IMG/VR virus record: IMGVR_UViG_3300008339_000252
Coordinates: 1-34,095 of that record
Source of the DNA: a virus
Length of the DNA: 34,095 bases
Strand: one strand, 5' to 3'
Both the position numbers and the translations under genes were made by a program. The notes under the pieces were generated by a model. The model worked only from the letters and a program-made list of their open reading frames with translations, had not been told where the DNA came from and did no database searches. Shown here one piece after another: positions 1-33,014 of the stretch (position 1 is its first letter; each line of letters starts with the position of its first letter).

Positions 1-1175
1 CCAGGATCCCGCTCCGTAACAATTTGAAAATCAAATTCAGGGGTGTTAGTATTAATACCAACTTTATTATTAGCAGCATCAACAAATAAAGCACTATTAC
101 CAACAACAACGTTTCCAGTGACATTGGCTGATGCAAATGTGACTGTTGAGTTGGTCCGGACATCTTGACCAATTGCAATAACGGGTATTTCAGATTCTCC
201 ACTAGATGTATTTGAAATGAATACGCCTGTGCCGTTAGCAAGACTTGCAACATATGAACCTGTAGTATCAACTCCTAGTTCAACGCTATTGCCTTGCGCA
301 ACAGTATTAACAGTAATTGTGACGCTACCCAAGTTTGTTAGAGTGGCATTACCGCTACCAGAAATATCTCCAGTTAATACTAAATTAATATTAGGATTGC
401 GATTGATACTACCAGTAATATTAAGATCACCCCCAACCGTTGTATTACCAGCTAAGTTAGATGTCTGATTTATTGTTAGAGTGTTAGCATTTAAACTGTT
501 AGCGCTAAACGAAGTGGAAACAGACAAAGACCCATTAACAGCAGCATTGCCCATTGATACAGCTATAGGACTGCCATTTGACGATGTTAAGCTAAGACTT
601 GTGTTTGTATCCGTAAATACAACGTTGCCCATGTAGAGCGTGTTGCCACTTAAATATAAAGTAGCAAACCTATTTGTATTATTACCTATTGTGTATACAT
701 TATTAGCATCAGGAATAATATTTTGAAGCTGAAGGGTGCCTGTTAGGATTGTAGCATTGGAAATATTGACGTTTCCAAAAAATCCATTATTAATGTAGGT
801 GCCAGTACTGTTAGTGGAGAACTGGGTATTGACAGTTAAACTTTGATTTACAACAACCGTATTTGGCAACGACAAATTGAAATCAAAAGCGTTGTTGTTT
901 GCAACAGCTATTTGAAACGAGTTGCCTGTTAGGGATGTAGGATTTCTGTTTTCAAAAGATCCCGTGTTAGCCAAGTACGCTAATATTTGGGAATTGGATA
1001 CATCAGTAATAGTAACATCAAGAAGATCCGTTAAAAAACGGCCATTACCTACTGTATTGTTTTTGAGAGTGACAGGAGGCTGTGACTGCAAAGAGCCATC
1101 ATCCTGCACACGTACCTTCACATTATTTGTTTGATTTACGCGTGCTTTTATATTCTCAAGTGCTGTATTTGCCAT
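1..1175 (-). CDS. Tail-fibre-like structural protein (3' end outside window)
   Basis: This open frame starts at an ATG 5 nt after the stop of the 109-residue gene and stays open for 391 codons to the window edge, so its C-terminus is missing. The N-terminus begins MANTALENIKARVNQTNNVK. The rest is Asn/Thr/Ser/Ala/Gly-rich with repeating short beta units (for example GNTTVGGDLNITGS). Near the edge is a FVDAANNKVGIN motif, which also occurs as FVDAVNNRVGIN in the 487-residue fibre gene at 12388-13851. This composition is typical of trimeric beta-structured fibre or adhesin shafts of marine T4-like phages. Receptor-binding tips are usually at the C-terminus, which is not visible here. The fibre class is well supported; the exact role is not. 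Confidence 0.75.
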   Translation of the reverse strand, partial: MANTALENIKARVNQTNNVKVRVQDDGSLQSQPPVTLKNNTVGNGRFLTDLLDVTITDVSNSQILAYLANTGSFENRNPTSLTGNSFQIAVANNNAFDFNLSLPNTVVVNQSLTVNTQFSTNSTGTYINNGFFGNVNISNATILTGTLQLQNIIPDANNVYTIGNNTNRFATLYLSGNTLYMGNVVFTDTNTSLSLTSSNGSPIAVSMGNAAVNGSLSVSTSFSANSLNANTLTINQTSNLAGNTTVGGDLNITGSINRNPNINLVLTGDISGSGNATLTNLGSVTITVNTVAQGNSVELGVDTTGSYVASLANGTGVFISNTSSGESEIPVIAIGQDVRTNSTVTFASANVTGNVVVGNSALFVDAANNKVGINTNTPEFDFQIVTERDP

Positions 1176-1180
1176 GTACT

Positions 1181-1510
1181 CTATCTTGTAACTTGTGGGG
1201 TAACAGTAACGATACCCTCAACTACACGAGAGATAACGTTGGAAGAATTTGTTAATTCAACGTCGTATACGTAACGACCTGCAATCAAACTAGCGGATTG
1301 ATTGGCTGTTAATGACAAAGTTACAACACCGTCCACCGGAGCGGTAGTAACGGTAAATGCTACAGAGTTAGAGGATGTAAAATGTTTTCTGATTTGCGCA
1401 GCCCCGGTGTATCCGGTGAGATCAATTGCTTGATCCTCATCATCCATAATATCAATAGAAACCGAAAACGTTGCGCCTTGATCTATAACGAGATTTGCTT
1501 TTGTAGCCAT
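1181..1510 (-). CDS. Small Ig-like/beta-sandwich virion protein
   Basis: A 109-residue protein starting at ATG, about 32 nt downstream of an exact late promoter. It begins MATKANLVIDQGATFSVSI, continues with an LTGYTGAAQIRKH segment, and ends with a GRYVYDVELT strand and VVEGIVTVTPQV. From memory, near-identical strand patterns recur in small structural proteins of T4-like cyanophages, and the pattern resembles N-terminal beta-sandwich domains of baseplate or receptor-binding proteins. It has no signal peptide, membrane segment or catalytic motif. It is the first gene after the late promoter and is followed 5 nt later by the fibre gene, which suggests a fibre attachment or adaptor role. That role is inference. 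Confidence 0.75.
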   Translation of the reverse strand: MATKANLVIDQGATFSVSIDIMDDEDQAIDLTGYTGAAQIRKHFTSSNSVAFTVTTAPVDGVVTLSLTANQSASLIAGRYVYDVELTNSSNVISRVVEGIVTVTPQVTR

Positions 1511-1624: not shown

Positions 1625-2356
1625 TTAAGACATTTTTAATTGAATTTCATCAAAAAACTTAATCCTAGCGTCTATTGCATTAATAGCAGCTTTTTCTGCT
1701 TCGAACGCCTTTACAGGATCATTACCACAAAAGTATTCTACCATTTGCTCGGCTTTAGGGCCATGATCTTGCCCATCAACTTCGATGTGCCGGTCAAGGT
1801 AATAATAAAATTTAGGTGCCTCAACTGCTGATATATTCAATTGCCTTAGTATTCTTTTAAACATAAGAGGTATTACTGTCTCCCTCCCATAACAAAACGA
1901 AGAAGCGGTACAGTGAGGTCCACGCCGAATGCTCTGAAACGTAGTTTCAATAAATTCCGATGAAGCTTTAGGAATAATATTGAAATCTTTCTTGTCTAAA
2001 AATTCAATAATTTTAGACGCATCGGCTTCAATCTCTAACATAGCTTGCAGATATAAATCAAAATGACTAATGGATCCTTTACCATCCGGCGTCAAATCTG
2101 ACTCTTCACAAAGAACAATTTCATTAATCATTCTTGCAATAGGACTACGCGTTCCTTGCGTCGGAAACCACAGTTCCGTTGATGGGCAAGCGTTATGCTG
2201 CAAAGTCTTAATTAAACTCATAAAGTCCCAAACAGCAAACACATGATGTTCCATAAAGATTCGCAAATCTTCGATTGTCTGTATGCTATTTGTGACTAAT
2301 AAACTATGATTGGCAAGCTTTTGTTGTTTTGCTATAATCCGCGTAGTATCTATCAT
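1625..2356 (-). CDS. DUF3050 protein, haem-oxygenase-like fold, putative oxidase
   Basis: A 243-residue protein with strong DUF3050 hallmarks: FMEHHVFAVWDFMSLIKTLQ (residues 34-53), INEIVLCEESD (77-87), SHFDLY (97-102), CYGRETVIPLMF (155-166) and YYLDRHIEVDGQDHGP (185-200). DUF3050 belongs to the haem-oxygenase/TenA/PqqC-like helical fold. The H190-x3-D194-x3-H198 pattern, with upstream acidic and His residues (E36, H37/H38, E79, E84, E85, E159), resembles the ligand set of haem-oxygenase-like diiron oxidases. That catalytic assignment is inference. The ATG overlaps the stop of the SPASM radical SAM gene by 4 nt, so the two are translationally coupled and likely act on the same pathway. It is the last gene of the cassette. 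Near full length for the family. Confidence 0.85.
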   Translation of the reverse strand: MIDTTRIIAKQQKLANHSLLVTNSIQTIEDLRIFMEHHVFAVWDFMSLIKTLQHNACPSTELWFPTQGTRSPIARMINEIVLCEESDLTPDGKGSISHFDLYLQAMLEIEADASKIIEFLDKKDFNIIPKASSEFIETTFQSIRRGPHCTASSFCYGRETVIPLMFKRILRQLNISAVEAPKFYYYLDRHIEVDGQDHGPKAEQMVEYFCGNDPVKAFEAEKAAINAIDARIKFFDEIQLKMS

Positions 2357-3663
2357 GTTGCAATAATGCCTGTTTCCTTTAATTCTACATCTGATCCAAA
2401 TAACAACTTAAATGCAGCGTTCTGAATAGCGCCATACCATATTTTTTCAACTCTACAATTTTTAAGGAACACCTCTGTAGGAAAATCAATTGGACAAGAG
2501 CTCTTACACAGTCGTCTAACTTGGCAATCGGAACAGTGCGTCTTTTTTCTATCCAAAGCTAAAGATACAATTTTCACGCCTTTTATATTTGAGACATGTC
2601 CGCTGTTGTATTTTTCATGCGTGTGGGGGCATAGCCTGACATTACCCCTTAAATCCATACTTAATATATCTGATGCATCTGCTCCGCAGTTTGTGGTAAT
2701 AGTGACTGGTATTTCGTGTTTGACGGACTGAGCAAATTTGAGTGCCCCTGTATCCCCATCAAAAACATTGGATTGTAAGATCGGTAAAGTTTTAGATCTG
2801 CCTTTTTCTTTTAACTGTAATATCGAGGCATCCATGTAATTCTTCATTACTGTTCTGAAGGCTTCTAAATTGTCTCCTTGGATTACATGGTCGGAGCTAT
2901 TTTTTGAATCCGTTTCATCGTATGTTTTACCAAGTGTATAGCTTATCTTTGAATTTTTTAACCCATTATCTGTGGCTAGTTTATAAAAATAATCATTAAT
3001 TAAAAACATATCAAAATTAGTATGGCTAACTACAGGATTAAAACTATATTGGAATTTTGGGTATAGAGCATCAAGTTGCTTCAACACATCCACTATTTGA
3101 GGACGTTTGAATATATCTTCTCCGCGAAGCGATTCTTGACCAGGCCCATCATGGCTTATTCCCATAGCCACAGTCGATTTCAACTGCTTGAAAAAATCCA
3201 CGTGCTTTTGACGAAGAGCGCTACCGTTTGTGGAAATATACCAAGAAATTGTTTTGCTATCAAAGTGGGTCATAATTTTAACCATATCGTTCCAATAAAG
3301 GAATGGTTCGCCGCCCCACAATTCTATGCGTGTTAATTCTGATATGTCGAGATATTTTTCTACCGATTCCAAGAAGCCCGGCGTCCAGAAATTTTCAGGT
3401 CTTTCTGAAGGATCGCCAATGTCTTTTTGCATACAATACCCACATGAATAATTACATGCATGCCCAAGTAAGAGCCTTAGCCCTTTTGGTTTATTGGTTT
3501 TAGTGACGACTCCATTTTGAGCAGCTTGTTCCGCATACCAGTCTTCAGACTCTACCGGTGAAGCGGATAGAGGCTGTCCTTCTGCATTTACGAGCGCGTT
3601 TCTATCATTGTTGTAATAAAATACTTGACCTGTTTCAATAACTTCAAATTTGGCAAAGCTCAT
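2353..3663 (-). CDS. Radical SAM/SPASM maturase (RiPP-type), adjacent to His-rich small protein
   Basis: A 436-residue protein. The radical SAM cluster motif is C70-x3-C74-x2-C77, followed by IELWGGEPFLYW (GGEP at 117-120). A complete SPASM domain follows: C326 and C345, then C377-x2-C380-x5-C386-x3-C390 and C403, the canonical set for two auxiliary 4Fe-4S clusters. This architecture is that of peptide or protein maturases such as anSME, PqqE, AlbA and QhpD. The first 60 residues precede the core and could be a substrate-binding region, but I cannot identify a RiPP recognition element by eye. The gene lies 15 nt after the 131-residue His-rich gene and overlaps the DUF3050 gene, so these three form a natural sub-module. 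Enzyme class is seen; substrate is inferred. Confidence 0.93.
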   Translation of the reverse strand: MSFAKFEVIETGQVFYYNNDRNALVNAEGQPLSASPVESEDWYAEQAAQNGVVTKTNKPKGLRLLLGHACNYSCGYCMQKDIGDPSERPENFWTPGFLESVEKYLDISELTRIELWGGEPFLYWNDMVKIMTHFDSKTISWYISTNGSALRQKHVDFFKQLKSTVAMGISHDGPGQESLRGEDIFKRPQIVDVLKQLDALYPKFQYSFNPVVSHTNFDMFLINDYFYKLATDNGLKNSKISYTLGKTYDETDSKNSSDHVIQGDNLEAFRTVMKNYMDASILQLKEKGRSKTLPILQSNVFDGDTGALKFAQSVKHEIPVTITTNCGADASDILSMDLRGNVRLCPHTHEKYNSGHVSNIKGVKIVSLALDRKKTHCSDCQVRRLCKSSCPIDFPTEVFLKNCRVEKIWYGAIQNAAFKLLFGSDVELKETGIIAT

Positions 3664-3678
3664 AATATACTCTCATAA

Positions 3679-4074
3679 TTAATAATTATCGTCAATCGGG
3701 TGATAGTGAGATCTTAACGCGTTTGCTGCAGTTACATGTTGATTAATGTAGGTGGCTGTAACAATTGATGCAGGATCTGGAATCCCGGGCGCGGTCCACC
3801 CTGGAATTGGATCAGTATTAACGTTTCGCGCACTGGTACTCCCATTGTTGCCATAATCAAAAATTCTGTCATAATCCACATACTGGTGATAATGCCGATA
3901 GAACGTATATAACAGATTACTGAGGGTGATAAAATCTTGACGCTGTATTGTATTTCCTGCAACGAAACGTGCTCTGAGTTCTTGACGATAAGACAGAGCA
4001 ACGCCAGTGTCCAGATTTTGCCCTGAGTCGTAGTTTAGTGGGAATCCTGCGTTTTGACTGGTTGATAATGGCAT
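3679..4074 (-). CDS. 131-residue protein with two HxH modules; candidate modification substrate
   Basis: I do not recognise a named family. The protein carries two copies of a helix-plus-His-x-His module: residues 43-63, ending H61-Y-H63, and residues 105-125, ending H123-Y-H125 just before the C-terminal PIDDNY. Both align without gaps to residues 25-45 of the 64-residue protein encoded at 7914-8108. Between them is a Gly/Asn/Pro-rich linker. The start is fixed by a perfect AGGAGG (4080-4085) 5 nt before the ATG. It lies 15 nt upstream of a SPASM radical SAM gene. It could be a maturase substrate, or a small virion protein whose HxH motifs bind metal, as in phage fibre and spike tips (T4 gp37, P2 gpV). 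There is no Cys. Confidence 0.75.
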   Translation of the reverse strand: MPLSTSQNAGFPLNYDSGQNLDTGVALSYRQELRARFVAGNTIQRQDFITLSNLLYTFYRHYHQYVDYDRIFDYGNNGSTSARNVNTDPIPGWTAPGIPDPASIVTATYINQHVTAANALRSHYHPIDDNY

Positions 4075-4079
4075 ATAAT

Positions 4080-4085
4080 CCTCCT
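4080..4085 (-). promoter_or_regulatory. Perfect Shine-Dalgarno AGGAGG for the 131-residue gene
   Basis: AGGAGG with a 5-nt spacer to the ATG at 4074. It is the strongest ribosome-binding site seen in the cassette and stands out against the weak or overlapping starts of most enzyme genes, which suggests the small protein is made in excess of the enzymes. Confidence 0.85.
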
Positions 4086-4089
4086 AGAG

Positions 4090-5208
4090 CTATTTATTCC
4101 AATGTATAATTGGGATTACTTTTGATTGAGGTTTAACAAGACCGTATTGTGTGTGCTTAAACCCACTCTCTATCAACTTATGGTAATATTTGCAACTTGA
4201 TCGTAGCATAAATTCTGGCACAAAATTAAAGTCTTTGTTAAACTTAAATTTTTGAACTTCATTAAAATAATCTACAAATTTTTGTTCTATAGCAGTGCCG
4301 GGAACAATCTCTTTGGCAAACTTATTATATAATTCTTGTTTACCAGTAAGCATTTCATACATTAACTCCGACGCGTTGAAGTCTTGATCTTTAACAAATG
4401 TAAAGAACGGATCCCAGTTTATATCTGTAGCATCATCGATGCTGTAGAAAAATCTATCGTTGTATAAGTGAATTGCTTCTCTGTATATCTGATATGTTTT
4501 ATTATTATGACTTAGCACATATGTATTCTGATAATCGTACTTACCTTGCTCTAAGTCGTACCTAGCATTAGCATCGTCTCTTAAATCATGCTGAAGACAA
4601 TTATACAATCCCCGATCATTCATCCAACCAACTATCTCTTCTACTTGCGGAGGCGTAGGATCATTTGTCGTACGAATAATTTTTATTTTAGCAATATCAT
4701 ACTTCGAAGCATAATCCTCCAACACTTCGATAATTTGTTTATTCTTATTTGTTTTTACGAGGAAGTGATCACTAAGACTAATATCTGCCATCCCCTTCAA
4801 CGTAACATGATCCATTAATGTTTTACGGTGGGTAAGGATAGCATTATCCGTCATTCCATATTCAAATACACTTCCGTGCGATTTATACCAGTCAAAAATA
4901 TACGGATGATTGAGGCGAAGATATGTTAGATCGTCGTTTGTACGTACGACGTAGAAATGATCAAACACATCGTACCACCTTGCTTCATCTCTTGATGTTA
5001 TTATCGTGGGTATGTTTTGAATATAATTAGAAAACCCTTGTTTAAGCTTATCTTTAATGTAACATATCTGACAACCTGCATGGCATGTATACTTGTATGT
5101 GGGCGTAAAGTACAAGTCAAACGTAAGAGGGCTTAAGGAGTCTTCTCTTAAAAAATACGTTGTGTGATCTTGGTAATGTTCGAAATCCTCCCCTGCATAA
5201 TTACTCAT
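4090..5208 (-). CDS. Divergent radical SAM-like protein without SPASM
   Basis: A 372-residue protein with one well-formed cluster motif, C42-x3-C46-x2-C49 (CHAGCQIC), preceded by a strand-like TFDLYFTP and so consistent with a radical SAM core. It lacks a GGEP motif, and there is no C-terminal CxxC cluster of the SPASM type. A single C-terminal SSCKYYHK cannot hold an auxiliary cluster alone. The ATG lies inside the end of the preceding radical SAM gene (8-nt overlap), so the two are translationally coupled and may form a complex. It may be an enzyme on a rare branch or a partner subunit that keeps only one cluster. The radical SAM call rests on the Cys motif, position and context, so it is less secure than its neighbours. 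Confidence 0.75.
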   Translation of the reverse strand: MSNYAGEDFEHYQDHTTYFLREDSLSPLTFDLYFTPTYKYTCHAGCQICYIKDKLKQGFSNYIQNIPTIITSRDEARWYDVFDHFYVVRTNDDLTYLRLNHPYIFDWYKSHGSVFEYGMTDNAILTHRKTLMDHVTLKGMADISLSDHFLVKTNKNKQIIEVLEDYASKYDIAKIKIIRTTNDPTPPQVEEIVGWMNDRGLYNCLQHDLRDDANARYDLEQGKYDYQNTYVLSHNNKTYQIYREAIHLYNDRFFYSIDDATDINWDPFFTFVKDQDFNASELMYEMLTGKQELYNKFAKEIVPGTAIEQKFVDYFNEVQKFKFNKDFNFVPEFMLRSSCKYYHKLIESGFKHTQYGLVKPQSKVIPIIHWNK

Positions 5209-6265
5209 CTATTCCTACCCAATGAAGTAAAGATGGTTTTCGGTTCAATTTACTCATGTGCTTTACTAATACGTTGATTGTTTGGTAAAATTTTACACAA
5301 TTGCCTTTTGGTTCTTCATCAAACATTTTGTAGAGATATTTAAGGCCGCAGTATTGTCTAGAGATGCATTTGACACAATCAGGGCGAATCAGGGAATCCT
5401 CATCCCCTTGTCTATAAAGCTCAATTCCATTTCTCCATTTGCCTACTCTAAACTCATCACGTTTATACTCAAGAAAATCAAACTCCGGATAGAGGTATCC
5501 ATCCGGCCCAAGGATAACTTTACCGTGATTGTTAAGGTAGTGCTTATCAATTTCCGTATAGTTGCCATCAATGTAGCACACAACGCCATTTACATAAAGC
5601 GTATGCAGCATCTTAGAAAAATCATACATGAACCTGTCTAGATTCATTTCATCTAGAAGTACCTTAAACTTCTGACGGCCACGATAATGTCTTAAGGGAA
5701 TAAGATTAACAACGTTGCAATGTAGAGTCTTACATGCATTAATAACTGCTGTAGACGATTCGATGTCCATTGCTCCAGGACTTGACACTGGTACAACAAA
5801 CTGAAACAGGCAGTTTGTCTTTGTAGCATGCAATACTTTAGCAATAGCTTCTAAATCAACAGGAGCCCTGTTAATATCTTGAAAATTAAAATCGTAACTA
5901 AATGTAATCTGACCCTTGCCTGCCCACTTCTCAAAGAACCATGCGTTATCCGCAATAAGAGAGCCATTGGTAGTCATTGTAAATTTGCAACCTAATTTTT
6001 CCAAATGGGTTGATATTTTATCAAGAATAAAATCCATTTTCTTAGCGTAGATCATTGGCTCGCCACCATGGAAGCAAATGTACTCAATGGGATGACCGCT
6101 CTCTACAATAGCGTCCATGAAAGCCACTATATCTTCCACAGCAGTCGTCTTCATATTTTGAGAGCCAATGTCCTCCCGTATGAATGCTCTATCACAATAC
6201 ACACAATCAAAATTGCAAGTATCCCCTAGATAGATAACTACGTTTTTGACGTTAGTTAAATCCAT
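5201..6265 (-). CDS. Radical SAM protein with short SPASM/twitch-like C-terminus
   Basis: A 354-residue protein. The motif C17-x3-C21-x2-C24 (CNFDCVYC) lies close to the N-terminus, so there is no leader domain. ICFHGGEPMIY follows (GGEP 67-70), then TMTTNGSLI, a usual strand of this fold. Near the C-terminus is C297-x2-C300-x5-C306 and C323, which looks like a shortened SPASM or twitch domain able to bind at least one auxiliary cluster. These traits fit peptide-modifying radical SAM enzymes. The start overlaps the 548-residue enzyme by 14 nt, and its own end overlaps the next radical SAM gene by 8 nt, so three such genes are translated as one unit. The reaction is unknown. Confidence 0.92.
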   Translation of the reverse strand: MDLTNVKNVVIYLGDTCNFDCVYCDRAFIREDIGSQNMKTTAVEDIVAFMDAIVESGHPIEYICFHGGEPMIYAKKMDFILDKISTHLEKLGCKFTMTTNGSLIADNAWFFEKWAGKGQITFSYDFNFQDINRAPVDLEAIAKVLHATKTNCLFQFVVPVSSPGAMDIESSTAVINACKTLHCNVVNLIPLRHYRGRQKFKVLLDEMNLDRFMYDFSKMLHTLYVNGVVCYIDGNYTEIDKHYLNNHGKVILGPDGYLYPEFDFLEYKRDEFRVGKWRNGIELYRQGDEDSLIRPDCVKCISRQYCGLKYLYKMFDEEPKGNCVKFYQTINVLVKHMSKLNRKPSLLHWVGIDE

Positions 6266-7898
6266 AATTCTTTTGATTAAATATTATTGTAGATATTAAT
6301 TGCAAATAGAATATTCTTATTTCTGGCGTATCTCCATCAACAATCTTAGTTGGAATTCCTTGACGTCCAGCAATTGCCTTGTATAGATCTACAGCTTCCA
6401 TTTCTCCTGCGTCGTTTGTCTCGCCACTAATGTGCGTCCATATATCTAACATAATTTGCCTATAAGGCTTGTAGTGGGACTTCGTGCATTTACCCATCTC
6501 CGGCCTTTCACCAGTCCGCAGATATTCCAACATATAATCTGCCCCAGTAGCCATAGCCTTCTCTTCGCCATCTTGTTGTAGCTGAGCAAGTCTAATTTCA
6601 AACATTCTGTGAAATTGTTTCTTAGCAACATCAGCTTGTAAATCAAGATATAGCTTAACAATTTCTTGACACATGTCGTCGGGTCTAAACATACGAGGGC
6701 CTGTATCAATATTGCCGGCTGGACATTGGTAACACATGTTCTGATAATTACACGTCTTACACTTCTCCTCTATTTGAAACATTTCGTTGTACATCGCCTG
6801 AAATTTGGTATAGCGATCGACGTATACTTTATCATCTAGTATGTTTCCAAGGATTGTTTCGTGAGCAGCTGCTTTTTGATTCGTGAAGAAGTAGCAGCCC
6901 GAGAAGTCGCCAGACGCGTCAATTGCTATCATATCTGAGCCAACCATACAATTGTTATCTTGTTTTTCGCCAACTCCTTCACTAAACAATACAGTCAAAT
7001 CCCTATACTTGTCTAAGCAATCGAACAACGCCTTACGCATTGTGTTCCAATTCTTTTCTTCCCATTTAATATAGCCGCGTCGAGAGTCAAGCACTAACGG
7101 ATGCACAATTAATCTTTTAACACCTTTCGCATACAAGGCTTCTATAAAGTTATGTAATGTGTCGGCCGTCTCTTCTGATAGAGTGCAGCGGATAGTTAGT
7201 CTAGCCCCGACGTTGGGAATTTTTGTAATCTTACTTACGTTAGAAAGAATTGTATTTAACTGATCTTGTGTAATGTCCCTATAATCTTTCTCAAGGTCCA
7301 TTGTATCTAAGCTAATCAACATGTACGTATATCTTTTGCTAAAATACATGTTAATAAAATCATCGTCTAACAGCAATCCGTTAGTGCAAATAGAAACTCC
7401 CGTACCTGTATACCCAACCCAATTTGAATTTAATTCTTTGTCGTGCGTGTTAATAAAATCTCTAATTAACGGCTTATGGATAAGAGGTTCGCCTCCAAAA
7501 AATTGAAGGATTTTTAAAGGACGATCGTTAATATTTTTGAGCCAGTCGTATGCTTTTTTTACAGACTCTACTGTAAATCTACCATAATCTTTATTGTGTT
7601 GCTCATAGCAATAATTGCAGCTAAGGTTGCAAGCGTTTGTAAGAAGAAGATTCATGTGAGCTAAACTACCAAACAAGTGTTTAGCTTCACTAAAGCGCTT
7701 TACTTGTTCTTCTTCTGATGGGATAATTGAGATTAGCTTGTTTTCTTTTTCCAAGCCATTGGGAGTAGTAATTGTACTAACTGTAGTTTTTAGCGTTCCG
7801 TCAGGTAATTGAATTACAGATGCAGCATGTCCCGCAATACGATCTTTTTGAGCATCATTGAGCGTTCTGTATATGTTTACTACATTCACTTGGTTCAT
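6252..7898 (-). CDS. Radical SAM/SPASM maturase next to the Cys-rich small protein
   Basis: A 548-residue protein. Radical SAM motif C90-x3-C94-x2-C97 (CNLSCNYC), then FFGGEPLI (GGEP 135-138) and SICTNGLLL. The SPASM region has C317, C335, C380-x2-C383-x5-C389-x2-C392 and C410. The domain is complete but for a CX2C rather than CX3C in the last pair. About 90 residues precede the core and about 130 follow SPASM; both extensions are unrecognised and could bind substrate. The architecture matches RiPP and protein maturases that form thioether, C-C or formylglycine products. The gene starts 15 nt after the 64-residue Cys/His gene. AGGGAAG overlapping that gene's stop is a usable though distant ribosome-binding site. 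Enzyme class is certain; substrate pairing is inference. Confidence 0.94.
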   Translation of the reverse strand: MNQVNVVNIYRTLNDAQKDRIAGHAASVIQLPDGTLKTTVSTITTPNGLEKENKLISIIPSEEEQVKRFSEAKHLFGSLAHMNLLLTNACNLSCNYCYEQHNKDYGRFTVESVKKAYDWLKNINDRPLKILQFFGGEPLIHKPLIRDFINTHDKELNSNWVGYTGTGVSICTNGLLLDDDFINMYFSKRYTYMLISLDTMDLEKDYRDITQDQLNTILSNVSKITKIPNVGARLTIRCTLSEETADTLHNFIEALYAKGVKRLIVHPLVLDSRRGYIKWEEKNWNTMRKALFDCLDKYRDLTVLFSEGVGEKQDNNCMVGSDMIAIDASGDFSGCYFFTNQKAAAHETILGNILDDKVYVDRYTKFQAMYNEMFQIEEKCKTCNYQNMCYQCPAGNIDTGPRMFRPDDMCQEIVKLYLDLQADVAKKQFHRMFEIRLAQLQQDGEEKAMATGADYMLEYLRTGERPEMGKCTKSHYKPYRQIMLDIWTHISGETNDAGEMEAVDLYKAIAGRQGIPTKIVDGDTPEIRIFYLQLISTIIFNQKNYGFN

Positions 7899-7913
7899 TA
7901 TGTGATGGCTTCC

Positions 7914-8108
7914 CTATAGCGAGCCGCGTTGGCATTGGCATTGGCAATTGCTGTTGTAGTCGTCAGTAAACGTATGGCCATGCGATACTAAAGTATCTAC
8001 AATATCCAACATTTGAGTGAAATGAGCTGCTGTAATTGTTTCGCCGGCCGCCTTATCCGCTGCGGCCCCAACGCCTGAGGTAAACTGACTGGTATTATCT
8101 GCTACCAT
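7914..8108 (-). CDS. 64-residue HxH/CQCQCQ protein; candidate RiPP-like precursor
   Basis: An Ala/Thr/Gly-rich N-terminal half leads into a predicted helix (residues 25-42), then H43-G-H45-T and FTDDY, and finally C55-Q-C57-Q-C59-Q before RGSL and the stop. A small protein with a Cys-rich tail placed 15 nt upstream of a SPASM radical SAM gene, with two more after it, is the classic layout of a peptide precursor and its maturases. Residues 25-45 align without gaps with both modules of the 131-residue protein. An AGGAG (8115-8119) sits 6 nt before the ATG and within the end of the previous gene. Alternatives are a metal-binding tip protein of the virion or an Fe-S carrier. No family is recognised with certainty; the coding call is strong because of the ribosome-binding site and tight packing. 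Confidence 0.8.
   Translation of the reverse strand: MVADNTSQFTSGVGAAADKAAGETITAAHFTQMLDIVDTLVSHGHTFTDDYNSNCQCQCQRGSL
7929..7946. repeat. Three tandem hexamers encoding Cys-Gln
   Basis: The plus strand reads ttggca three times in a row; on the coding strand each TGCCAA encodes one Cys-Gln of the C55-Q60 tail. A fourth related unit, CAACGC, breaks the pattern. In-frame hexamer repeats can gain or lose units by slippage, changing the number of Cys residues without a frameshift. Confidence 0.85.
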
Positions 8109-8109
8109 T

Positions 8110-9072
8110 TTATACTCCTAAAAGAAGAGATTCTATTGTTATTTTTCTATCATCTGATATTATATATGGCTTCGTGAGGTCGTAACAATCGAACGTAACC
8201 TTGATATATCCCATACCAGGCTGCTTTTTAACTAGGATGGTATTACCCTTTATTTCCGTATCCCAAGATGACTTTACTGTAAAATAGTTATTAAGTAAAC
8301 AACTATTCGTTTTATGATATATTAACGAATTATGACCAATCTCTATCTTGAGATAGTCTTTTTCAACAACCAATGTATTTGCCACATATTCGCAATCAAC
8401 CCTAGGTTCAAAAGCAAACCTTACTATATTACCGGTTTGGTCGTGAGTTGATGAAATGGTGCGCTCATTTGTATTCATGCTAACGCCGGCATGGCCAGAA
8501 ATAATGTTATGGTTGCACATTAACACATATCCATTTGTTTTTGCCAACCGAAAAGCTATAAAAAAAGTAAGAACGTTGATTTGTTCGTTTTGCCCTATAT
8601 CGTCTATGCCATCAAACACTTTAAGCTGGTTGTCCTTCCCCCGCACAATATACTGGGAGTCTTTCAACAGCGTCGTTTCGCTTGTCGGGTCCTGTTTATT
8701 TAATATAAGGGCTAATGATACCCATTCATACTCATCTAACGCGCGCTCCATTAAATCAAGGTCAAGAATCCTTGTGTTGTCAGGTGTGCGCATTTGAGCA
8801 GGTAAAAAAGATCTAGTAATTAATACGTCATTTCCGTCTTGCAAAAAAACAAGATTAGTAATATCTTTATCAAACTGACGTAGTATGGGGCCCTGCTTAT
8901 ACTCTCCGGCAGCTTTGCGTAGGGATGGAAGAAGAAGTCGAGTGTTAGCAGGCACTACTAATGTAGATCCGTTTTGATCTACAAATGTACGGTTTGTATT
9001 ATTAATGGCATTAGATACCCCATCCCACTGGGAAGGTCTATTTGTTGCTCGCATAAAAAGCCAATGTTTCAT
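8110..9072 (-). CDS. Unrecognised 320-residue protein, possibly lectin-like beta-sandwich
   Basis: I do not recognise this family. The sequence alternates hydrophobic strands with polar turns. A central stretch, from EWVSLALILNKQD through a GKDNQLKVFDG strand to FFIAFRLAKTNGYVLMCNHN and ISGHAGVSMN, has the spacing of concanavalin/LamG-type jelly-roll domains, which often bind glycans. That is a weak visual inference. There is no signal peptide or membrane segment. The ATG overlaps the stop of the 189-residue gene by 4 nt, and the gene is followed after one base by the 64-residue small protein, whose ribosome-binding site lies inside this gene's last codons. It could be a virion protein carried in the cassette or a partner of the modification enzymes. 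Confidence 0.7.
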   Translation of the reverse strand: MKHWLFMRATNRPSQWDGVSNAINNTNRTFVDQNGSTLVVPANTRLLLPSLRKAAGEYKQGPILRQFDKDITNLVFLQDGNDVLITRSFLPAQMRTPDNTRILDLDLMERALDEYEWVSLALILNKQDPTSETTLLKDSQYIVRGKDNQLKVFDGIDDIGQNEQINVLTFFIAFRLAKTNGYVLMCNHNIISGHAGVSMNTNERTISSTHDQTGNIVRFAFEPRVDCEYVANTLVVEKDYLKIEIGHNSLIYHKTNSCLLNNYFTVKSSWDTEIKGNTILVKKQPGMGYIKVTFDCYDLTKPYIISDDRKITIESLLLGV

Positions 9073-9638
9073 AATTGCTGTATATACTCCAAAACTTCTT
9101 GTTCTACACTTCCATCAAAAAAAACATCATATATGTGCTTATTATTTTTCATCCACTTATTGTGAGCATCGCAGATTGTATGACCCTGCATAGCTCGTAT
9201 TCCCTCATGCTCCTCCATATGGTCTACTTCATATTCTGTCTCAGAGACAGTCCATCCAACAAAGATATCTACATTCGAGGGTTTTGTTGTGTTATGAGGA
9301 AAGGTAATAACAAGTTTAGAATCCCCGCCCTTAATTTCAGCAAATGTTTTAGCATACACGTCATCAAATAAGTGACTAAAATGAACCATGGTTCTTTCAT
9401 TTTCTGCAGTAGCATCGACGGCCTCACTATACTGACCTTGTTTTACTAAAGCACTAACTTCTTTTCCATATAGCCCAGGATTGCTTATAACATGATTAAC
9501 CATATATTCATATACATTCTCCGTGCCCAACCGGTTATACTGCTGCTCAATCATTCTTAAGTTAGTGGGGGTGTTTGTTTGCTGCTTTATTTTGTAGGCG
9601 GATTGAGATTCAATTGGATAATTTAATAATATAATCAT
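9069..9638 (-). CDS. Unrecognised 189-residue protein
   Basis: No family is recognised. I place the start at the ATG at 9638 (MIILLNYPIESQSAYKIK), 5 nt after the stop of the P-loop gene. A longer reading from a TTG at 9692 would overlap that gene by 49 nt and is less likely. The middle is helical and charged. A VITFPHN strand and an EVDHMEEHEGIRAMQGHTIC stretch, rich in His, Glu and one Cys, could bind metal. The C-terminus (DVFFDGSVEQEVLEYIQQL) is acidic. The stop overlaps the ATG of the next gene (ATGA). Its fixed place between the kinase-like and 320-residue genes suggests a shared pathway, but no function can be assigned. Confidence 0.7.
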   Translation of the reverse strand: MIILLNYPIESQSAYKIKQQTNTPTNLRMIEQQYNRLGTENVYEYMVNHVISNPGLYGKEVSALVKQGQYSEAVDATAENERTMVHFSHLFDDVYAKTFAEIKGGDSKLVITFPHNTTKPSNVDIFVGWTVSETEYEVDHMEEHEGIRAMQGHTICDAHNKWMKNNKHIYDVFFDGSVEQEVLEYIQQL

Positions 9639-9643
9639 TTTTA

Positions 9644-10351
9644 TTATCTTGACATTAACACTTCTACAACACTTTCTATTGTATTTTTGCAATTTAATTT
9701 GAATGTATCTAGATTGCTGTTGTTGTTAATATTAGCAGCAACCTCTACAATGCGCGCTTTATCAAACATGGTATCGTTATACTTCATGGTAGTTATAGCA
9801 TCTTCTATACTGCATTTTGGCGTCATTCCATCAACATAATTATTTACCCACCAAGATGTTTCATATGTCTTTGGCCGGCTGATTGTAATCATAGCATCAA
9901 ACATATCATTGTATTTAAATTTAGTTGATAAAGGACATTGCACAAATACAACATTATTACTTTTTAAAAAAAATGAATATGTCGACATAGTCTTTATATC
10001 CTCAGATATAAAATTCATGTGTACATCAAACATTACGTTTTTTATAGTCTCATATGTAGTATAATTTTGTGACATATATACAACCAATTTACTGTATCTG
10101 CTGTCAAAATTAAGCTTATTCCATGTTAAAATTTCTGCTTGATGTTCTGGAGGCAACAATGTTATTTCCGGTATTGGAAGAAACGTGTCCTCCATTATTC
10201 CCTCGCGGTCATAATTAAATATGGTATATCCTAGCTGCCGGACTACCGTATCAAACTCTGTTTTTCCGCTGGCCGCCATTCCGACTACCCCAATAACGGT
10301 AGCTGATCTGCGCAATGCCTGGATTCGTAAGTTGTAGTCGTAGTTACTCAT
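9644..10351 (-). CDS. P-loop NTPase, small-molecule-kinase-like
   Basis: A 235-residue protein with a Walker A motif G24-M-A-A-S-G-K-T31 after a VIGVVG strand. This is the GxxxxGKT loop seen in adenylate, deoxynucleotide, shikimate and dephospho-CoA kinases. A later strand, VVFVQCPL (residues about 132-139), fits the central sheet. The lid and acceptor site cannot be assigned by eye. An N-terminal RIQALRR helix precedes the loop. The ATG overlaps the end of the cobalamin radical SAM gene by 8 nt. It might phosphorylate a cassette product or a nucleotide for phage DNA synthesis; its position inside the cassette favours the former. The NTPase call is firm; the substrate is unknown. Confidence 0.8.
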   Translation of the reverse strand: MSNYDYNLRIQALRRSATVIGVVGMAASGKTEFDTVVRQLGYTIFNYDREGIMEDTFLPIPEITLLPPEHQAEILTWNKLNFDSRYSKLVVYMSQNYTTYETIKNVMFDVHMNFISEDIKTMSTYSFFLKSNNVVFVQCPLSTKFKYNDMFDAMITISRPKTYETSWWVNNYVDGMTPKCSIEDAITTMKYNDTMFDKARIVEVAANINNNSNLDTFKLNCKNTIESVVEVLMSR

Positions 10352-12386
10352 ATATAACTTTAAGGTCCTGAAAGTTTTTTGGTTTTACACTATTTGAGCA
10401 AAGGGACAAAAAGTGATTGCGTATTCGTGTATTTAGGTCGACGTCTTTATCCCATTCCGCAAGATCTTGCGGCACGTATGTAGTCTTTTTTTCTTGAATT
10501 ATATTATTTTTCATATATGTTGACCAATCGTATTTTGTAGTAAACTTATATGCTCCGGGCGTATAGCTGATAGTCTTTAGCGAAGATGCAACATACACAA
10601 TTAAATCATCCCGTATAGCATCTTCCCCAAATTGTTCTGCACACCATTGCTGTAGAGCGAAGTAAAACGTACTAATGTTTAAATATACAATCATGTTAAA
10701 CAAAGGACCAGGAAGACTTCTTACTTGAAAAGGAAAGTTTTCAGGTAAATCGTAGTATTCAAAATCGACAACTTCATCTTGTTGTAGCTTTTTTAGGCCC
10801 TGAGTTTTCATAGTCTGCAAAAGTTGATTTTGTACGACGGTCATCTTATTGTTACCATACAAGAAGGTTTCCCAGAACTTTCTATAAAAAGTACTATGAT
10901 TGATACCGCTAGAGGCAAGATATTTTGTAATCGGTTGTAGTATTTGTCCTACTTCTGTTTGTAAAATAATGTGATCAAGAAGAAACATATTAAGCCATTC
11001 TTCTCTTGTATATGAGCTAGTTTCAATTACAATTTCAGTGGGCTCCATCCATTCAGGATCGATTACTAAATGGCGGATACCAACAGGCTGCTCATCCAAT
11101 TTCTTTTTAATAATGACAGAGCCTCCATCTACTGTGCTCCTCATACCAAAGCTAGTTTTAAGACTTTTAATGCTGAACCGTTTACGGTATTCCGGTTTGG
11201 ATGCTGGGGTTGTTGGTAGAAGGTGCCATATGTATCGACGGCCAAACGTATCTAACGTACAGGAATAATCCAAAGCTTCATAGTAGCTATCCAGCGTTGC
11301 GCCAGGCAGACCAAGAATCATCTCTAAACGTATCTTGCCGCCAAACTTATCTCTAATCTTTATATAACTTTCTAATTGAATTTTCCAATCTTCATCTGTT
11401 CTGTCAATATTTTTTAGCACTTCTCTATTTAAATCTTGAACAGGAACTTTGTAGTCAGATAACATCCCGTGCTCTGCTGTTAACGATTCAATAAGATATA
11501 CGTTTTGTTTATTTACCTTTGACGGACCAAAGAAGTACATTACGCTAGGAACATTTGCATTTCTTTTCCATTCACAAATACGTTTAATTATATCAACATC
11601 GCGATCGATTATTCCAAAGTTGGCATCCGTAAATGAAAAAAAGAATGGCTGAACATGTTCCATTATAAAGTTGATATCTTTCATAACCATATCGGTTGGT
11701 TTGAAAGTGACTTTGGAATTAATTCCTCCCCCCCACTCACAGTATGTGCAGCCAAACGGACATCCTCGAGATGTTTCATAAGCAACATACAACTTTTTAT
11801 CTTCTATTTTAGCTTTTTGAATTCGTCTGCTAAGATAATGTATATTACGTTCGTAAATATTAGATGGCCATTTAAAGTCTCGTTTGTAGAAGCTAGCAAA
11901 CGATTCCTTCCACATTCCCTTGTCGGGGTATATGCAAAAAGGAACTTCTGATAGATTGGGAGTAGGCTGTTCTAATTGATAAAGGTACTCAGTGATAAAA
12001 ATTTCACCATACCCATCCTCTTTACATACTGCATCGATAAAGTAATTATCTTTAAAGTAATTAATATTTTCTTTGTATGTAATATGAGGACCGCCAACAA
12101 CAATCTTACAATTGGGAAGTTGCTTCTTAACTTGCTCTGCTACATGTAGCGAAAGTCCTACGTTCCACACGTATAGAGAGAACCCAACAACGTTAGGTTT
12201 GCGGGTTACTATTTCAGTTACAAGTTCGTCAACATGGAAAGCAAAAGACTCAGTGATTGGGTCTAACCATTCCCACTGAGTCTTGCTTTTATTGTTTTCT
12301 TCGAAATAAGATTTGAATGATAGCCACGCATAATCTATTCCAAGAACCTCTGCGGCCATGGAATAATTCACAAATTGTATTTTCAT
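10344..12386 (-). CDS. Cobalamin-binding-domain radical SAM protein
   Basis: A 680-residue protein with a Rossmann-like B12-binding domain at about residues 1-145 (NVVGFSLYVWN near 65-75, KIVVGGPHIT near 94-103, KEDGYGEIFI near 122-131) and no DxHxxG base-off motif. The radical SAM motif follows as RGCPFGCTYC, C209-x3-C213-x2-C216, and then EWGGG. LRLEMILGLPGATLDSYYEALD-type residues (about 355-375, matching the GLPGxT motif common to B12 radical SAM proteins) support the core. The C-terminal ~230 residues are unrecognised. Such enzymes commonly methylate unactivated carbon or phosphorus or rearrange rings. It is the first gene of the cassette, starting 1 nt after the fibre gene with no promoter, so it relies on read-through. 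Class is secure; reaction unknown. Confidence 0.92.
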   Translation of the reverse strand: MKIQFVNYSMAAEVLGIDYAWLSFKSYFEENNKSKTQWEWLDPITESFAFHVDELVTEIVTRKPNVVGFSLYVWNVGLSLHVAEQVKKQLPNCKIVVGGPHITYKENINYFKDNYFIDAVCKEDGYGEIFITEYLYQLEQPTPNLSEVPFCIYPDKGMWKESFASFYKRDFKWPSNIYERNIHYLSRRIQKAKIEDKKLYVAYETSRGCPFGCTYCEWGGGINSKVTFKPTDMVMKDINFIMEHVQPFFFSFTDANFGIIDRDVDIIKRICEWKRNANVPSVMYFFGPSKVNKQNVYLIESLTAEHGMLSDYKVPVQDLNREVLKNIDRTDEDWKIQLESYIKIRDKFGGKIRLEMILGLPGATLDSYYEALDYSCTLDTFGRRYIWHLLPTTPASKPEYRKRFSIKSLKTSFGMRSTVDGGSVIIKKKLDEQPVGIRHLVIDPEWMEPTEIVIETSSYTREEWLNMFLLDHIILQTEVGQILQPITKYLASSGINHSTFYRKFWETFLYGNNKMTVVQNQLLQTMKTQGLKKLQQDEVVDFEYYDLPENFPFQVRSLPGPLFNMIVYLNISTFYFALQQWCAEQFGEDAIRDDLIVYVASSLKTISYTPGAYKFTTKYDWSTYMKNNIIQEKKTTYVPQDLAEWDKDVDLNTRIRNHFLSLCSNSVKPKNFQDLKVIYE

Positions 12387-12387
12387 A

Positions 12388-13851
12388 TCATAGGATTACT
12401 GCTTCAACAATCCCTTCACTATACTCATTATGGTCGGTCAAGGCAACAGCAAATACGTGGTCATATCGTACTTGAGCTGTGCCGGGAGCTGCAGGAGCAT
12501 GCGCTGGTCCTAAAGAATCTCCTTTTTTTACAATTCCGTAAACGCGGACAGGAACACGGCCTTTAAGAGCAACATAGGTTCCACCTTCCAAGTCCTTGTT
12601 CATCATAAATGCTGGATTTTCTGATATAACCCCAATTGGTCTTGTTCTATCACTACCAGTAGATGCTGTGACTTCTTTTTCACCACCAACACTTATTACG
12701 GTGCCAATTGGATATTCAGCGTCGGCCAAATACTTTTCAGCCAAGTCGGCGTACCGAGCAGCTGTCGCTGTGCCAGTCATAACATTAGCAGAGAAGTTGC
12801 CAGAAGCATCACGCGCAACAATTGAGTTGCCTGTGTTTGTTTCCGTGGCAGAACGGAAAGTGCCTCCATATAATAAGAAGTTGGCATTTTGCGCAACTCC
12901 ATTCAATGTAGCAGTAACGACGTTTGCACTAAAGCTGCCGGAGGCATCCCGAGCCACTACCGTACTTGCGGTAGCAGCATCTGTTGCATTTACACTAAGC
13001 GATCTGTCTACGGATAGAGCGCCGCCTCCAACTAAATAAGCTCCAGCACTAATACTACGAGAGCAGGTATTAGCATTACCACTTACACTACCAACAATAG
13101 TTGCTGTAAATGTAGCTGCACCAGTAACTGCCATTGTGTTAGAGAATGTTGCAGCTCCTGTTACGCCTACGGTGTTTGAGAAAGTAGCAACGCCAGTAAC
13201 TGCCATTGTGTTAGAGAATGTTGCAGCTCCTGTTACGCCCACGGTGTTTGATAAAGTAGCAGCGCCAGTTGTACCTAAAGTACCACCCAATGTTGTACTG
13301 CCGCCTACATAGAAGCTGCTTGATACGTTTGCTGTGCCAGTAACTGTCAAAGAAGCGTCCGGAACAGCATTGTTAATACCAACCCGGTTGTTAACAGCAT
13401 CAACAAACATTGTACTTGAGTCAATGTTCGTATTGGTTGTACCAGTTACAGAAAACACGTTTGCAGCAACTGTGCCAGCATTAATAGTCGTAGCGTTAAT
13501 GGTTGTTGTGGTAAACGTACCTGAAACGTTTGCATCTCCGTTAACAAAAAATGCTACTGTGGCGGAAGCTGCGTTTATAGAGAGACGATCATTAACGGCA
13601 TCGATTACCAGCGTATCTGTGTCAAACGTCACATTGCCTGTGCTAAACGAAACAATATTACTGAACGTTGCATTACCTGTAACATTTATAGTGTTAGCAA
13701 ACGTGGCTGCACCAGTTACTGTAAGAGTATTAGAAAATGCAGCAGTGTTTGTTACGGTTAAGTTTTGTTGAACGGCAGCGTTACCTGCCACTGTAGCGTT
13801 CTCAGTAACAAAAAGGCCTTTGCGAGCTCGTAGGTCTTGTATAACCGCCAT
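12388..13851 (-). CDS. Repetitive tail-fibre protein with conserved C-terminal domain
   Basis: A 487-residue protein. Residues 15-270 are built from a roughly 12-residue beta repeat (consensus VTGAATFSNT), including an almost exact 72-bp DNA repeat. FVDAVNNRVGIN near 150 is a motif shared with the fibre gene at the left edge. The last ~120 residues form a compact non-repetitive domain: ADLAEKYLADAEYPIGTVIS, then VALKGRVPVRVYG, KKGDSLG and EGIVEAVIL. I recall similar domains at the ends of fibre proteins in marine T4-like phages; the part after PIGTVIS resembles a beta-barrel head, and a chaperone-like role is possible but not shown. A GGA-type ribosome-binding site (AAGGAAAAAC) precedes the ATG. 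It is the last structural gene before the radical SAM cassette. Confidence 0.85.
   Translation of the reverse strand: MAVIQDLRARKGLFVTENATVAGNAAVQQNLTVTNTAAFSNTLTVTGAATFANTINVTGNATFSNIVSFSTGNVTFDTDTLVIDAVNDRLSINAASATVAFFVNGDANVSGTFTTTTINATTINAGTVAANVFSVTGTTNTNIDSSTMFVDAVNNRVGINNAVPDASLTVTGTANVSSSFYVGGSTTLGGTLGTTGAATLSNTVGVTGAATFSNTMAVTGVATFSNTVGVTGAATFSNTMAVTGAATFTATIVGSVSGNANTCSRSISAGAYLVGGGALSVDRSLSVNATDAATASTVVARDASGSFSANVVTATLNGVAQNANFLLYGGTFRSATETNTGNSIVARDASGNFSANVMTGTATAARYADLAEKYLADAEYPIGTVISVGGEKEVTASTGSDRTRPIGVISENPAFMMNKDLEGGTYVALKGRVPVRVYGIVKKGDSLGPAHAPAAPGTAQVRYDHVFAVALTDHNEYSEGIVEAVIL
13121..13251. repeat. 72-bp direct repeat in fibre gene
   Basis: A 59-bp block at 13121-13179 recurs at 13193-13251, offset 72 bp, with a single base difference (t/c at 13167 against 13239). 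It encodes two 12-residue fibre repeats (a 24-residue unit). High identity at the DNA level points to recent duplication or ongoing recombination. Confidence 0.85.
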
Positions 13852-13874
13852 TGTTTTTCCTTATGCTATATCAA

Positions 13875-14612
13875 TTAAATAATTGTTGTTCTTGCTACTT
13901 TAAATGTGGCATTTGTTGTTGGAGTTGCTAGCAATCTTACATTGCCGGTGTTTATATCGGCATCAAATGTACAGAATAAAGTAACTGAATTTGCTATACC
14001 ATATTCTGTAATGAATACAGTAGACCCATCGTGGGTCAATAGTATTTCGGATGCCTGATAGCCAGTAGTATTATTTTTTACTTCTATTACATACTTTGAT
14101 GTTCTGTACGTTGTTGCTGAATAAGAATCAACAACTGTTTGTCCGGGAGTTGTGTTAGTGTAAGCAACAGTATTAGATTGAATTGTTAGTACGCTACCAA
14201 TGTTTACCCGAGTAGTGATACTTGCTGTATTAGAAACGGTAAGTGTATTTGCTACAGTAGCGTTGTTAGATATATCTAATGATGTACCAAATATTAACCA
14301 CCGCCCGCTTGTATTTCCTAATGTTACTCCATTAGCAGTTGGTAGTGTGTCGCCATTAAAAGTAGCTGTGTTGGAGGCGTTAAAAGAATTAGCCCATATA
14401 TTCCAGCGGTTGCTTGTATTGCCAAGTGCTCGACCTGAAACATCAGGTACAAAGTTGCCTTGAACATTGGCCGTAAATACGATACTTCCCCCAACACTCA
14501 AATCTCCAACAACGTTAGCGCTACCAAAAACAAGAAGGTTTTGCTCTATGTCTGTGTTACCGACAACCAGTAACCCATGCTCTGCTTTAAATTTTGTATT
14601 TCCAGTGGCCAT
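13875..14612 (-). CDS. Fibre-like virion protein with shared C-terminal domain
   Basis: A 245-residue protein, Asn/Thr/Ser-rich with repeats such as LGNTSNRWNIWANS and LGNTSGRWLIFGTS near residues 60-110. Its C-terminal ~90 residues (TSKYVIEVKN, ASEILLTHDGSTVFITEYG, FDADINTGNVRLLATP) form a beta-rich domain widespread in T4-like marine phage structural proteins. The motif ILLTHDGSTVFITEY aligns with ILIVADGTNAFLTEY in the next gene upstream (14617-15567), so the two are paralogues at this end. The domain is probably the distal head of a short fibre. The start follows the preceding stop by 4 nt. Receptor specificity cannot be read from sequence. Confidence 0.82.
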   Translation of the reverse strand: MATGNTKFKAEHGLLVVGNTDIEQNLLVFGSANVVGDLSVGGSIVFTANVQGNFVPDVSGRALGNTSNRWNIWANSFNASNTATFNGDTLPTANGVTLGNTSGRWLIFGTSLDISNNATVANTLTVSNTASITTRVNIGSVLTIQSNTVAYTNTTPGQTVVDSYSATTYRTSKYVIEVKNNTTGYQASEILLTHDGSTVFITEYGIANSVTLFCTFDADINTGNVRLLATPTTNATFKVARTTII

Positions 14613-22788: not shown

Positions 22789-22796
22789 AGGTCCTC

Positions 22797-24557: not shown

Positions 24558-24558
24558 A

Positions 24559-30004: not shown

Positions 30005-30007
30005 TTA

Positions 30008-32996: not shown

Positions 32997-33014
32997 AGGT
33001 ATTAAGTTGAAAAA

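Follow-up and report, generated by a model that had tools for sequence, protein, structure and literature searches.

A conserved radical SAM gene module among phage tail-fiber genes and its candidate small-protein substrate

Many unrelated large phages carry, usually among their tail-fiber genes, a compact module of radical S-adenosylmethionine (SAM) genes. It is described here from the IMG/VR record IMGVR_UViG_3300008339_000252, a stretch of 34,095 bases from a T4-type myovirus, referred to below as the window. The module is part of a cassette of eleven open reading frames (ORFs, g01 to g11), all on the minus strand at positions 1625–12386, between fiber genes. The block is a conserved module that is inherited as a unit, which we regard as practically certain, and its enzymes retain their cluster cysteines under strong purifying selection. 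On balance, we favor a reading of the block as a mobile module for the maturation of one dedicated substrate, the 64-residue protein g07, with a virion component as its product.

The cassette is tightly packed, with intergenic distances of −4, 15, 15, −8, −14, 15, 1, −4, −49, −8 and 1 nt. An initial annotation of the window had described eleven closely spaced genes on one strand, five of which encode proteins with CxxxCxxC motifs (680, 548, 354, 372 and 436 residues), and fiber genes on both sides. All of this was borne out, the flanks being baseplate and fiber-like genes of the T4 type. Its description of two small His/Cys proteins holds for the 64-residue protein, which has cysteines, and fails for the 131-residue protein, which has none. 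The Pfam Radical_SAM model matches four of the five CxxxCxxC proteins (the 680-residue one below the cut-off) and does not match the 372-residue one.

A gene module conserved among large phages

With family hidden Markov models (HMMs) built here, all four of the enzymes g06, g05, g04 and g02 were found, in this order and on one strand, in 40 loci with non-identical g06. These are not 40 independent lineages, as some are close relatives of one another. The core of the module consists of g03, g08 and g07 and these four radical-SAM-fold proteins, often accompanied by g01. The genes for g03, g07 and g08 lie directly upstream of the enzymes in most loci, and the order of g07 and g08 is variable. 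Four members are optional: the DUF3050 protein g01 (about 25 of the 40 loci), the B12-dependent radical SAM protein g11 (8 of 40), g09, which is confined to the clade of the window, and the P-loop protein g10, which was seen in the window alone. Considered as core members, g09, g10 and g11 were rejected because they are missing from most relatives.

The module is retrieved by g06, g07 and g04 as separate starting queries. The first search returned a sister block (L002/L003) with the same gene order, lacking the P-loop gene, in which the radical SAM enzymes are 73–87% identical to those of the window, and a DUF3050 search added further, more divergent blocks. The g07 search gave 36 loci; g06 is present in every one but L111, which a contig end truncates. 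Of the 35 newly fetched loci that g04 added, 32 have all four enzymes and the remaining three begin at a contig end. Conservation of the block as a unit in related phages was one of the checks proposed in the initial annotation, and the ordered module indeed recurs in about 40 non-identical viral contigs. Pairwise distances of the four enzymes correlate across loci (r 0.74–0.91, Mantel p 0.002). The contigs are up to 379 kb long and, as in the window, most of the relatives examined place the module beside fiber or virion genes, in T4-type and other phages. In L011 and L050, the enzymes and small proteins are opposite in orientation to the neighboring fiber genes; the block is inverted relative to them and therefore moves.

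In 84,980 species genomes of bacteria and archaea, a scan identified a single clear module (47% identity). It is located in an Ewingella assembly, on a contig of 253 kb, and has baseplate-like genes nearby. The other seven matches are partial and 22–35% identical. The Ewingella contig (L103) is probably a jumbo phage contig within a bacterial assembly. In its module (L103:4009-11710), g06 is extended at the N-terminus by a long stretch, and upstream there is a transposase-like gene.

The ratio of non-synonymous to synonymous differences (pN/pS), measured against one relative whose synonymous sites are saturated or nearly so, is 0.10–0.15 for g02, g04, g05 and g06, 0.20 for g01, 0.25 for g11 and 0.26 for g07. 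The proteins g08 and g09 evolve much faster, with a ratio of substitution rates (dN/dS) of about 0.4 for g08. Chance and an assembly error or chimera are excluded as explanations of the cassette because the enzymes are under purifying selection (pN/pS 0.10–0.25 at this synonymous divergence) and the ordered block recurs in many independent contigs.

The enzymes and their candidate substrate

The core enzyme g06 (548 residues, 6252–7898) is a radical SAM/SPASM protein (Pfam Radical_SAM 3e-16, SPASM above the cut-off) that is closest to PapB and CteB. Its best NCBIfam match is PapB (NF047865, 3e-32), with 112 bits at a cut-off of 340, so that g06 is a relative and not a member of that family. 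Its best PDB relative is 5wgg (1e-18), which we take to be CteB; the title of the entry 5why describes a thioether-forming sactipeptide enzyme. Conserved in at least 90% of 48 aligned rows are C90/C94/C97 of the SAM cluster and C317, C335, C380, C383, C389, C392 and C410 of the SPASM domain, and g06 displays the cysteine pattern of SPASM maturases (C, G-x4-C, CxxC-x5-CxxC, C).

Of the three other core enzymes, the radical SAM/SPASM-type protein g02 (436 residues, 2353–3663) matches Radical_SAM at 5e-9 and the SPASM model at 7.5e-6, just under the cut-off, and conserves C70/C74/C77 and C326, C345, C377, C380, C386 and C390 in at least 90% of 40 rows. The radical SAM protein g05 (354 residues, 5201–6265, Radical_SAM 9e-11) conserves C17/C21/C24 and the auxiliary-cluster cysteines C297, C300, C306 and C323. 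The fourth, g04 (372 residues, 4090–5208), has no Pfam match and carries invariant C42, C46 and C49. Its AlphaFold2 model, made from 34 aligned sequences, has a predicted local distance difference test (pLDDT) score of 92.7, and its best structural neighbors (VIA-align) are MoaA (Z 10.6) and SuiB (Z 10.3), together with ChlB, viperin and anSME (Z about 10). Because the three cysteines are invariant and this confident model lies nearest to radical SAM enzymes, g04 is, as modeled, a divergent radical-SAM-fold protein. Superfamily membership is given by Pfam for g02, g05 and g06, by cysteines and model for g04, and by a B12-binding domain and CysS/TokK relatives for g11.

In one contig, two of the enzyme genes are broken: g06 and g02 are each split into two ORFs in L013 (4435-6078 and 8629-9984; same contig as L026). 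The close relatives L027 and L028 keep both intact, and the breaks are due to sequencing error or decay.

The proposed precursor or substrate of these enzymes is g07 (64 residues, 7914–8108), in which a variable N-terminus is followed by the motif HxHxFxDDY and the tail C-Q-C-Q-C-Q-RGSL. Among 44–46 relatives, the conserved residues are H43, H45, D49, D50, Y51, C55, C57, C59, R61 and G62. The relatives are 63–122 residues long and repeat this plan, with a variable N-terminus, a slightly varying HxHxFxDDY, three to six Cys-X units and RG. Tails with five units predominate (a script counted 32 of 46), and the window clade has three. The residue X is restricted: it is Q, D, N or E after the first cysteine in 45 of the 46 sequences and Q or N after the second in all 45 that have one, while later positions also permit A, S, G and T. 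The deviating sequence, that of L072, has an intein-like insert within the repeat; the other relatives have no cysteines outside the tail. This 207-residue protein (L072:9793-10416, minus strand) carries a Hint-like insert, CFAGDTLIHTREG...SGIITKN, between the tail segments CQCNCA and CNCTCCTRG, an assignment that rests on a reading of motifs because Pfam gave nothing.

No family matched g07 in Pfam and NCBIfam searches. Its gene and that of g06 form the arrangement typical of clusters for ribosomally synthesized and post-translationally modified peptides (RiPPs), a small precursor gene tightly linked to modifying enzymes. Loss of the radical SAM genes with retention of the small proteins, named in the initial annotation as evidence against its reading, is not observed for g07, which was never found without g06, and is observed for the 131-residue g03. 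We consider it likely that at least one module enzyme acts on g07. The initial proposal of a phage-carried modification pathway is the best reading of the cassette, with g07 as the candidate for a small substrate of its own.

The second small protein, g03 (131 residues, 3679–4074, phrog_31780 1e-6), has two HxHxxxD motifs, and its conserved residues are H61, H63, D67, H123, H125 and D129. In L079, a relative is fused to a glycine-rich, fiber-tip-like domain. In L144 and L152, the g03 gene adjoins a ketoacyl synthase gene in place of the radical SAM genes, and both contigs end soon after. Because it occurs there without radical SAM genes, g03 was rejected as a dedicated substrate; its presence beside a different enzyme cassette makes it look like a general protein of the fiber region. 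The cassettes next to g03 are exchangeable (L144:9926-12603, L152, L036:5245-8414, L145), comprise ketoacyl synthase, fatty acid desaturase, class III aminotransferase and unknown genes, and occur with or without the radical SAM module. A 452-residue g03 relative in L059 (7485-8843), also found in L060, carries a C-terminal Hint-like domain, with Hom_end_hint at 9e-7 narrowly missing its cut-off.

The protein g08 (320 residues, 8110–9072), whose gene adjoins that of g07, is unrecognized; it has HMM matches in most loci and an AlphaFold2 model with a pLDDT of 84. Residues 215–320, approximately, align with immunoglobulin (Ig)-like domains (Z 6–7), including that of the phage lambda tail tube protein V. 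Only this C-terminal part was matched in the fold search, in which the N-terminal part was not searched alone. It is among the least conserved members of the module, with almost no invariant residues, and some modules contain two or three diverged copies (L046:6552-9921, L064:8083-9876).

Of the accessory proteins, g01 (243 residues, 1625–2356) belongs to the DUF3050 family of heme-oxygenase-like oxidases and is of the MgoB type (Pfam DUF3050 6e-71; PDB relative 9vwb, a DUF3050 protein, 2e-54). It conserves H17, E79, E84, H98, E108, E159, H190, D194 and H198. Six of these, E84, H98, E159, H190, D194 and H198, are candidate ligands in 26 rows, and this E/H/E/H/D/H set would be fit for two metals. 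DUF3050 relatives (about 40% identity) also occur in a separate context in viral contigs, where their partner is a different radical SAM protein, 474–475 residues long, and the module is absent (L018:936-3121, L019:2546-4752). The B12-binding radical SAM protein g11 (680 residues, 10344–12386, Pfam B12-binding 4e-10) scores 2e-30, below the cut-off, with the KedN5 family and about 3e-31 with CysS (PDB 9n1b) and TokK (PDB 7kdx), which makes it by similarity a relative of these cobalamin-dependent C-methylases. The P-loop kinase-like protein g10 (235 residues, 9644–10351) has the Walker A motif GMAASGKT and a weak match to TIGR00152 (0.013); it is missing from the sister locus L002. The unrecognized, optional g09 is present only in L002, L025–L028 and L111 besides the window. 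Its ORF reaches 9692 from a TTG, and it very likely begins at an internal ATG (9069–9638, about 189 residues) because the L002 homolog begins at the corresponding ATG; the overlap of 49 nt then vanishes.

Proposed maturation pathway and competing readings

In the pathway we propose, g06 would bind g07 through its N-terminal region and, as in PapB and CteB, cross-link the (Cys-[Asp/Glu/Asn/Gln])n tail by thioethers, each joining a cysteine sulfur to a carbon in the side chain of the acidic or amide residue. The enzymes g05, g04 and g02 would add or prepare further modifications on g07, perhaps at HxHxFxDDY, and the DUF3050 protein g01 and the putative B12 methylase g11 would add lineage-specific ones. 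The thioether formed by PapB runs from the Cys sulfur to Asp at its beta carbon or to Glu at its gamma carbon, and zero to six intervening residues are tolerated (PMC9413430). The Cys-[DENQ] pattern of g07 is compatible with a ranthipeptide thioether (Cys to a non-alpha carbon), and the chance that the tail carries thioethers appears about even.

With less certainty, the product would not be exported as a free peptide and would be a small virion component made together with the fibers. The HxH motif of g07 resembles the metal-binding HxH of trimeric fiber tips, g07 shares its HxH domain with g03, and in L103 g03-type and g07-type motifs are joined in one chain. A Pfam search of the eleven cassette ORFs found no transporter, exporter or peptidase; exporters and leader peptidases are common, not universal, in RiPP clusters. 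A virion component is favored over a released peptide because there is no exporter or protease, because the HxH domain is common to a fiber-region protein, and because the module has fiber or virion genes as neighbors in unrelated phages. A place for the product in the virion is, in our judgment, a little better than an even chance, and the modified peptide would probably be carried at the fiber tip.

Several points weigh against this reading. For every named maturase family, g06 falls well short of the cut-off, and no recognized precursor-binding domain (RiPP recognition element, RRE) was found. In L061, the module adjoins ribonucleotide reductase genes and not fibers. The Cys-X-Cys tails and HxH motif could simply bind metal unmodified, the fiber neighborhood of phages also houses cassettes that modify the host surface, and both the chemistry of g07 and its location in the particle are predictions from sequence.

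The foremost alternative, which we judge unlikely, is a free RiPP: after modification and cleavage, g07 would be released at lysis or exported, to act on neighboring cells as an antimicrobial, signal or metal chelator. The set of enzymes, with a small peptide whose tail is conserved and whose N-terminus varies, does resemble a RiPP cluster, and DUF3050/MgoB proteins belong to natural-product clusters, ORF80 of Ralstonia phage phiRP12 being named MgoB (PMC5468394). However, the window cassette has no exporter, leader peptidase or immunity gene, the HxH domain of g07 is common to g03, a relative of which is fused to a fiber-like domain, the usual location is among fibers, and of the genomes scanned just one bacterial assembly contained a clear module.

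Next, and also unlikely, the enzymes might make a small molecule or alter host surface sugars or lipids against superinfection, the small proteins being ordinary fiber parts. The exchangeable ketoacyl synthase, desaturase and aminotransferase cassettes in the same region of relatives are in line with this, and the genes of the host-recognition island of pelagimyophages have been read in this way (PMC7029224). Yet g07 was never apart from g06, whereas g03 was; the residues in the tail of g07 follow the pattern that a thioether substrate would have, and g06 and g02 bear the auxiliary-cluster cysteines of peptide-modifying enzymes.

It is improbable that g07 is an unmodified, metal-binding fiber-tip protein, with g08 or a large fiber protein as the actual target of the radical SAM enzymes. 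HxH and CxCxC are capable of metal binding, and g08 adjoins g07, evolves fast and terminates in an Ig-like part whose fold is related to that of phage virion domains, but it is poorly conserved with almost no invariant residues, and it is g07 that carries the conserved chemistry. Auxiliary metabolism at low oxygen, as proposed for a Campylobacter phage radical SAM cluster (PMC2853527), or viperin-like nucleotide chemistry, suggested by weak pVip matches to g06, g05 and g02, is very improbable, since the pVip scores are generic to the superfamily and weaker than that of g06 to PapB and the Campylobacter CP220 cluster lacks g01, g03, g04, g07 and g08; an anti-phage viperin identity was rejected, the similarity being generic.

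Should the maturation of g07 be confirmed, four radical-SAM-fold proteins (five with the B12 enzyme) and an oxidase would serve a protein of 64 residues, an unusually complex viral post-translational pathway. The Cys-X repeats would be a new substrate class for radical SAM chemistry, and tail tips could bear non-standard chemistry. It is also conceivable, at less than even chance, that phages ribosomally make a metal-binding peptide with several cross-links and place it at the fiber or baseplate tip, where a structural part would also be a RiPP. Such a fiber-tip RiPP would perhaps imitate a metal-chelate ligand recognized by host outer-membrane receptors.

Genomic context and comparison with known systems

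Along the minus strand, the window contains tail tube cap, baseplate wedge and hub genes (33–18 kb), fibers, the cassette (12,386–1,625) and further fiber-like genes. The T4-type baseplate genes (18295–34095) match PHROG baseplate wedge, hub/lysozyme and tail tube cap families. Upstream of the cassette, fiber-like genes occupy 12388–14612 on the minus strand, with weak matches to tail fiber and structural PHROGs at 12388–13851. Downstream (3–1510, minus strand) are genes for a 109-residue protein with a weak Phage_tube_2 match (Pfam), whose homolog comes after the module in T4-type relatives, and for a 391-residue protein. The latter and the product of 13875–14612, which has no Pfam match, are judged fiber-like from sequence alone. 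Rfam and tRNA scans of the window found nothing, and a promoter and terminator scan gave no signal above shuffles. A nucleotide search of a phage collection with the window returned zero matches, and tblastn with variants of g06, g11, g01, g04, g03 and g07 returned only weak generic radical SAM or chance matches. In L017, IscU-like and IscA/HesB-like genes, recognized by sequence, lie just past the DUF3050 end of the module (11563-12262), in keeping with the iron-sulfur (Fe-S) demand of a radical SAM pathway and with earlier reports that T4-like phages with many radical SAM genes encode Fe-S assembly proteins.

Phages rich in radical SAM genes have been unexplained since 2010, and the module supplies a concrete, testable substrate and enzyme set for them. 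They have been read in terms of metabolism, DNA repair, Fe-S need or host recognition, or not at all (PMC2853527, PMC5332604, PMC7029224, PMC8541153, PMC12390700). We found no published description of the module, g07 or a substrate in a literature search that mostly did not cover subscription papers and preprints, so that absence is not proof.

The T4-like Campylobacter phages CP220 and CPt10 have an interchangeable block of five radical SAM genes (PMC2853527), which differs in coming with an amidinotransferase and sugar transferases. In CP220 (L142, 70.7-79.3 kb), the radical SAM cluster, amidinotransferase and nucleotide-sugar transferase genes lie by baseplate lysozyme and PAAR genes, a further case of a radical SAM block within a tail region. 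The 50–99 kb region of CP220 has only one radical SAM match and no homolog of g01, g03, g04, g07, g08 or g11, and the identity of this cluster with the present module was rejected for its different gene set. A closer counterpart is found in Ralstonia phage phiRP12, in which ORF76, 77, 79 and 80 are annotated as radical SAM, Fe-S oxidoreductase, MoaA and MgoB, matching g06, g05, g02 and g01; the counterpart in phiRP31, a phage whose virion proteomics identified 32 proteins, is ORF72–76 (PMC5468394). The phiRP12/phiRP31 paper annotates these as unrelated enzymes, does not name g03, g07, g08 and g04 in its text and proposes no pathway (PMC5468394). The 279,845 bp contig of L068 contains g07, g08, g06, g05, g04, g02 and the DUF3050 gene in order and appears, from this gene content, to carry the phiRP12-type module.

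Eight radical SAM genes lie inside the structural cluster of Aeromonas phage 332-Vera (PMC12390700) and six nearby ones in Pseudomonas phage pPa_SNUABM_DT01 (gp057-066; PMC8541153); no substrate was proposed for either. The marine T4-like genome TARA_ERS488813_N000010 has 12 radical SAM genes and an Fe-S assembly gene (PMC5332604), and pelagimyophages MAGV3 and MAGV16 have gained radical SAM cassettes in their host-recognition island (PMC7029224). These were read as Fe-S metabolism or host recognition, with module and substrate undefined.

The HxH motif likewise occurs in fiber-associated phage proteins such as the metal-binding fiber tips of the T4 gp37 type and of Alteromonas phage R22Y (PMC11705849). 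In the module, by contrast, it is found on separate small proteins, with DD and Cys-X added, which might bind metal. The closest biochemical parallels are PapB/PapA (freyrasin-type ranthipeptide) and CteB/CteA (SCIFF), in which a SPASM enzyme is likewise encoded beside a small Cys-repeat peptide. The module differs from them in its four radical-SAM-fold proteins, an HxH domain in place of a typical leader, the lack of an exporter and its location in phage fiber clusters. PapB acts on a Cys-X3-Asp/Glu repeat, where it joins Cys to the acidic residue, and also tolerates other spacings, whereas the Cys-X repeats of g07 have Asn and Gln besides Asp and Glu, and Asn or Gln acceptors would depart from the chemistry of PapB.

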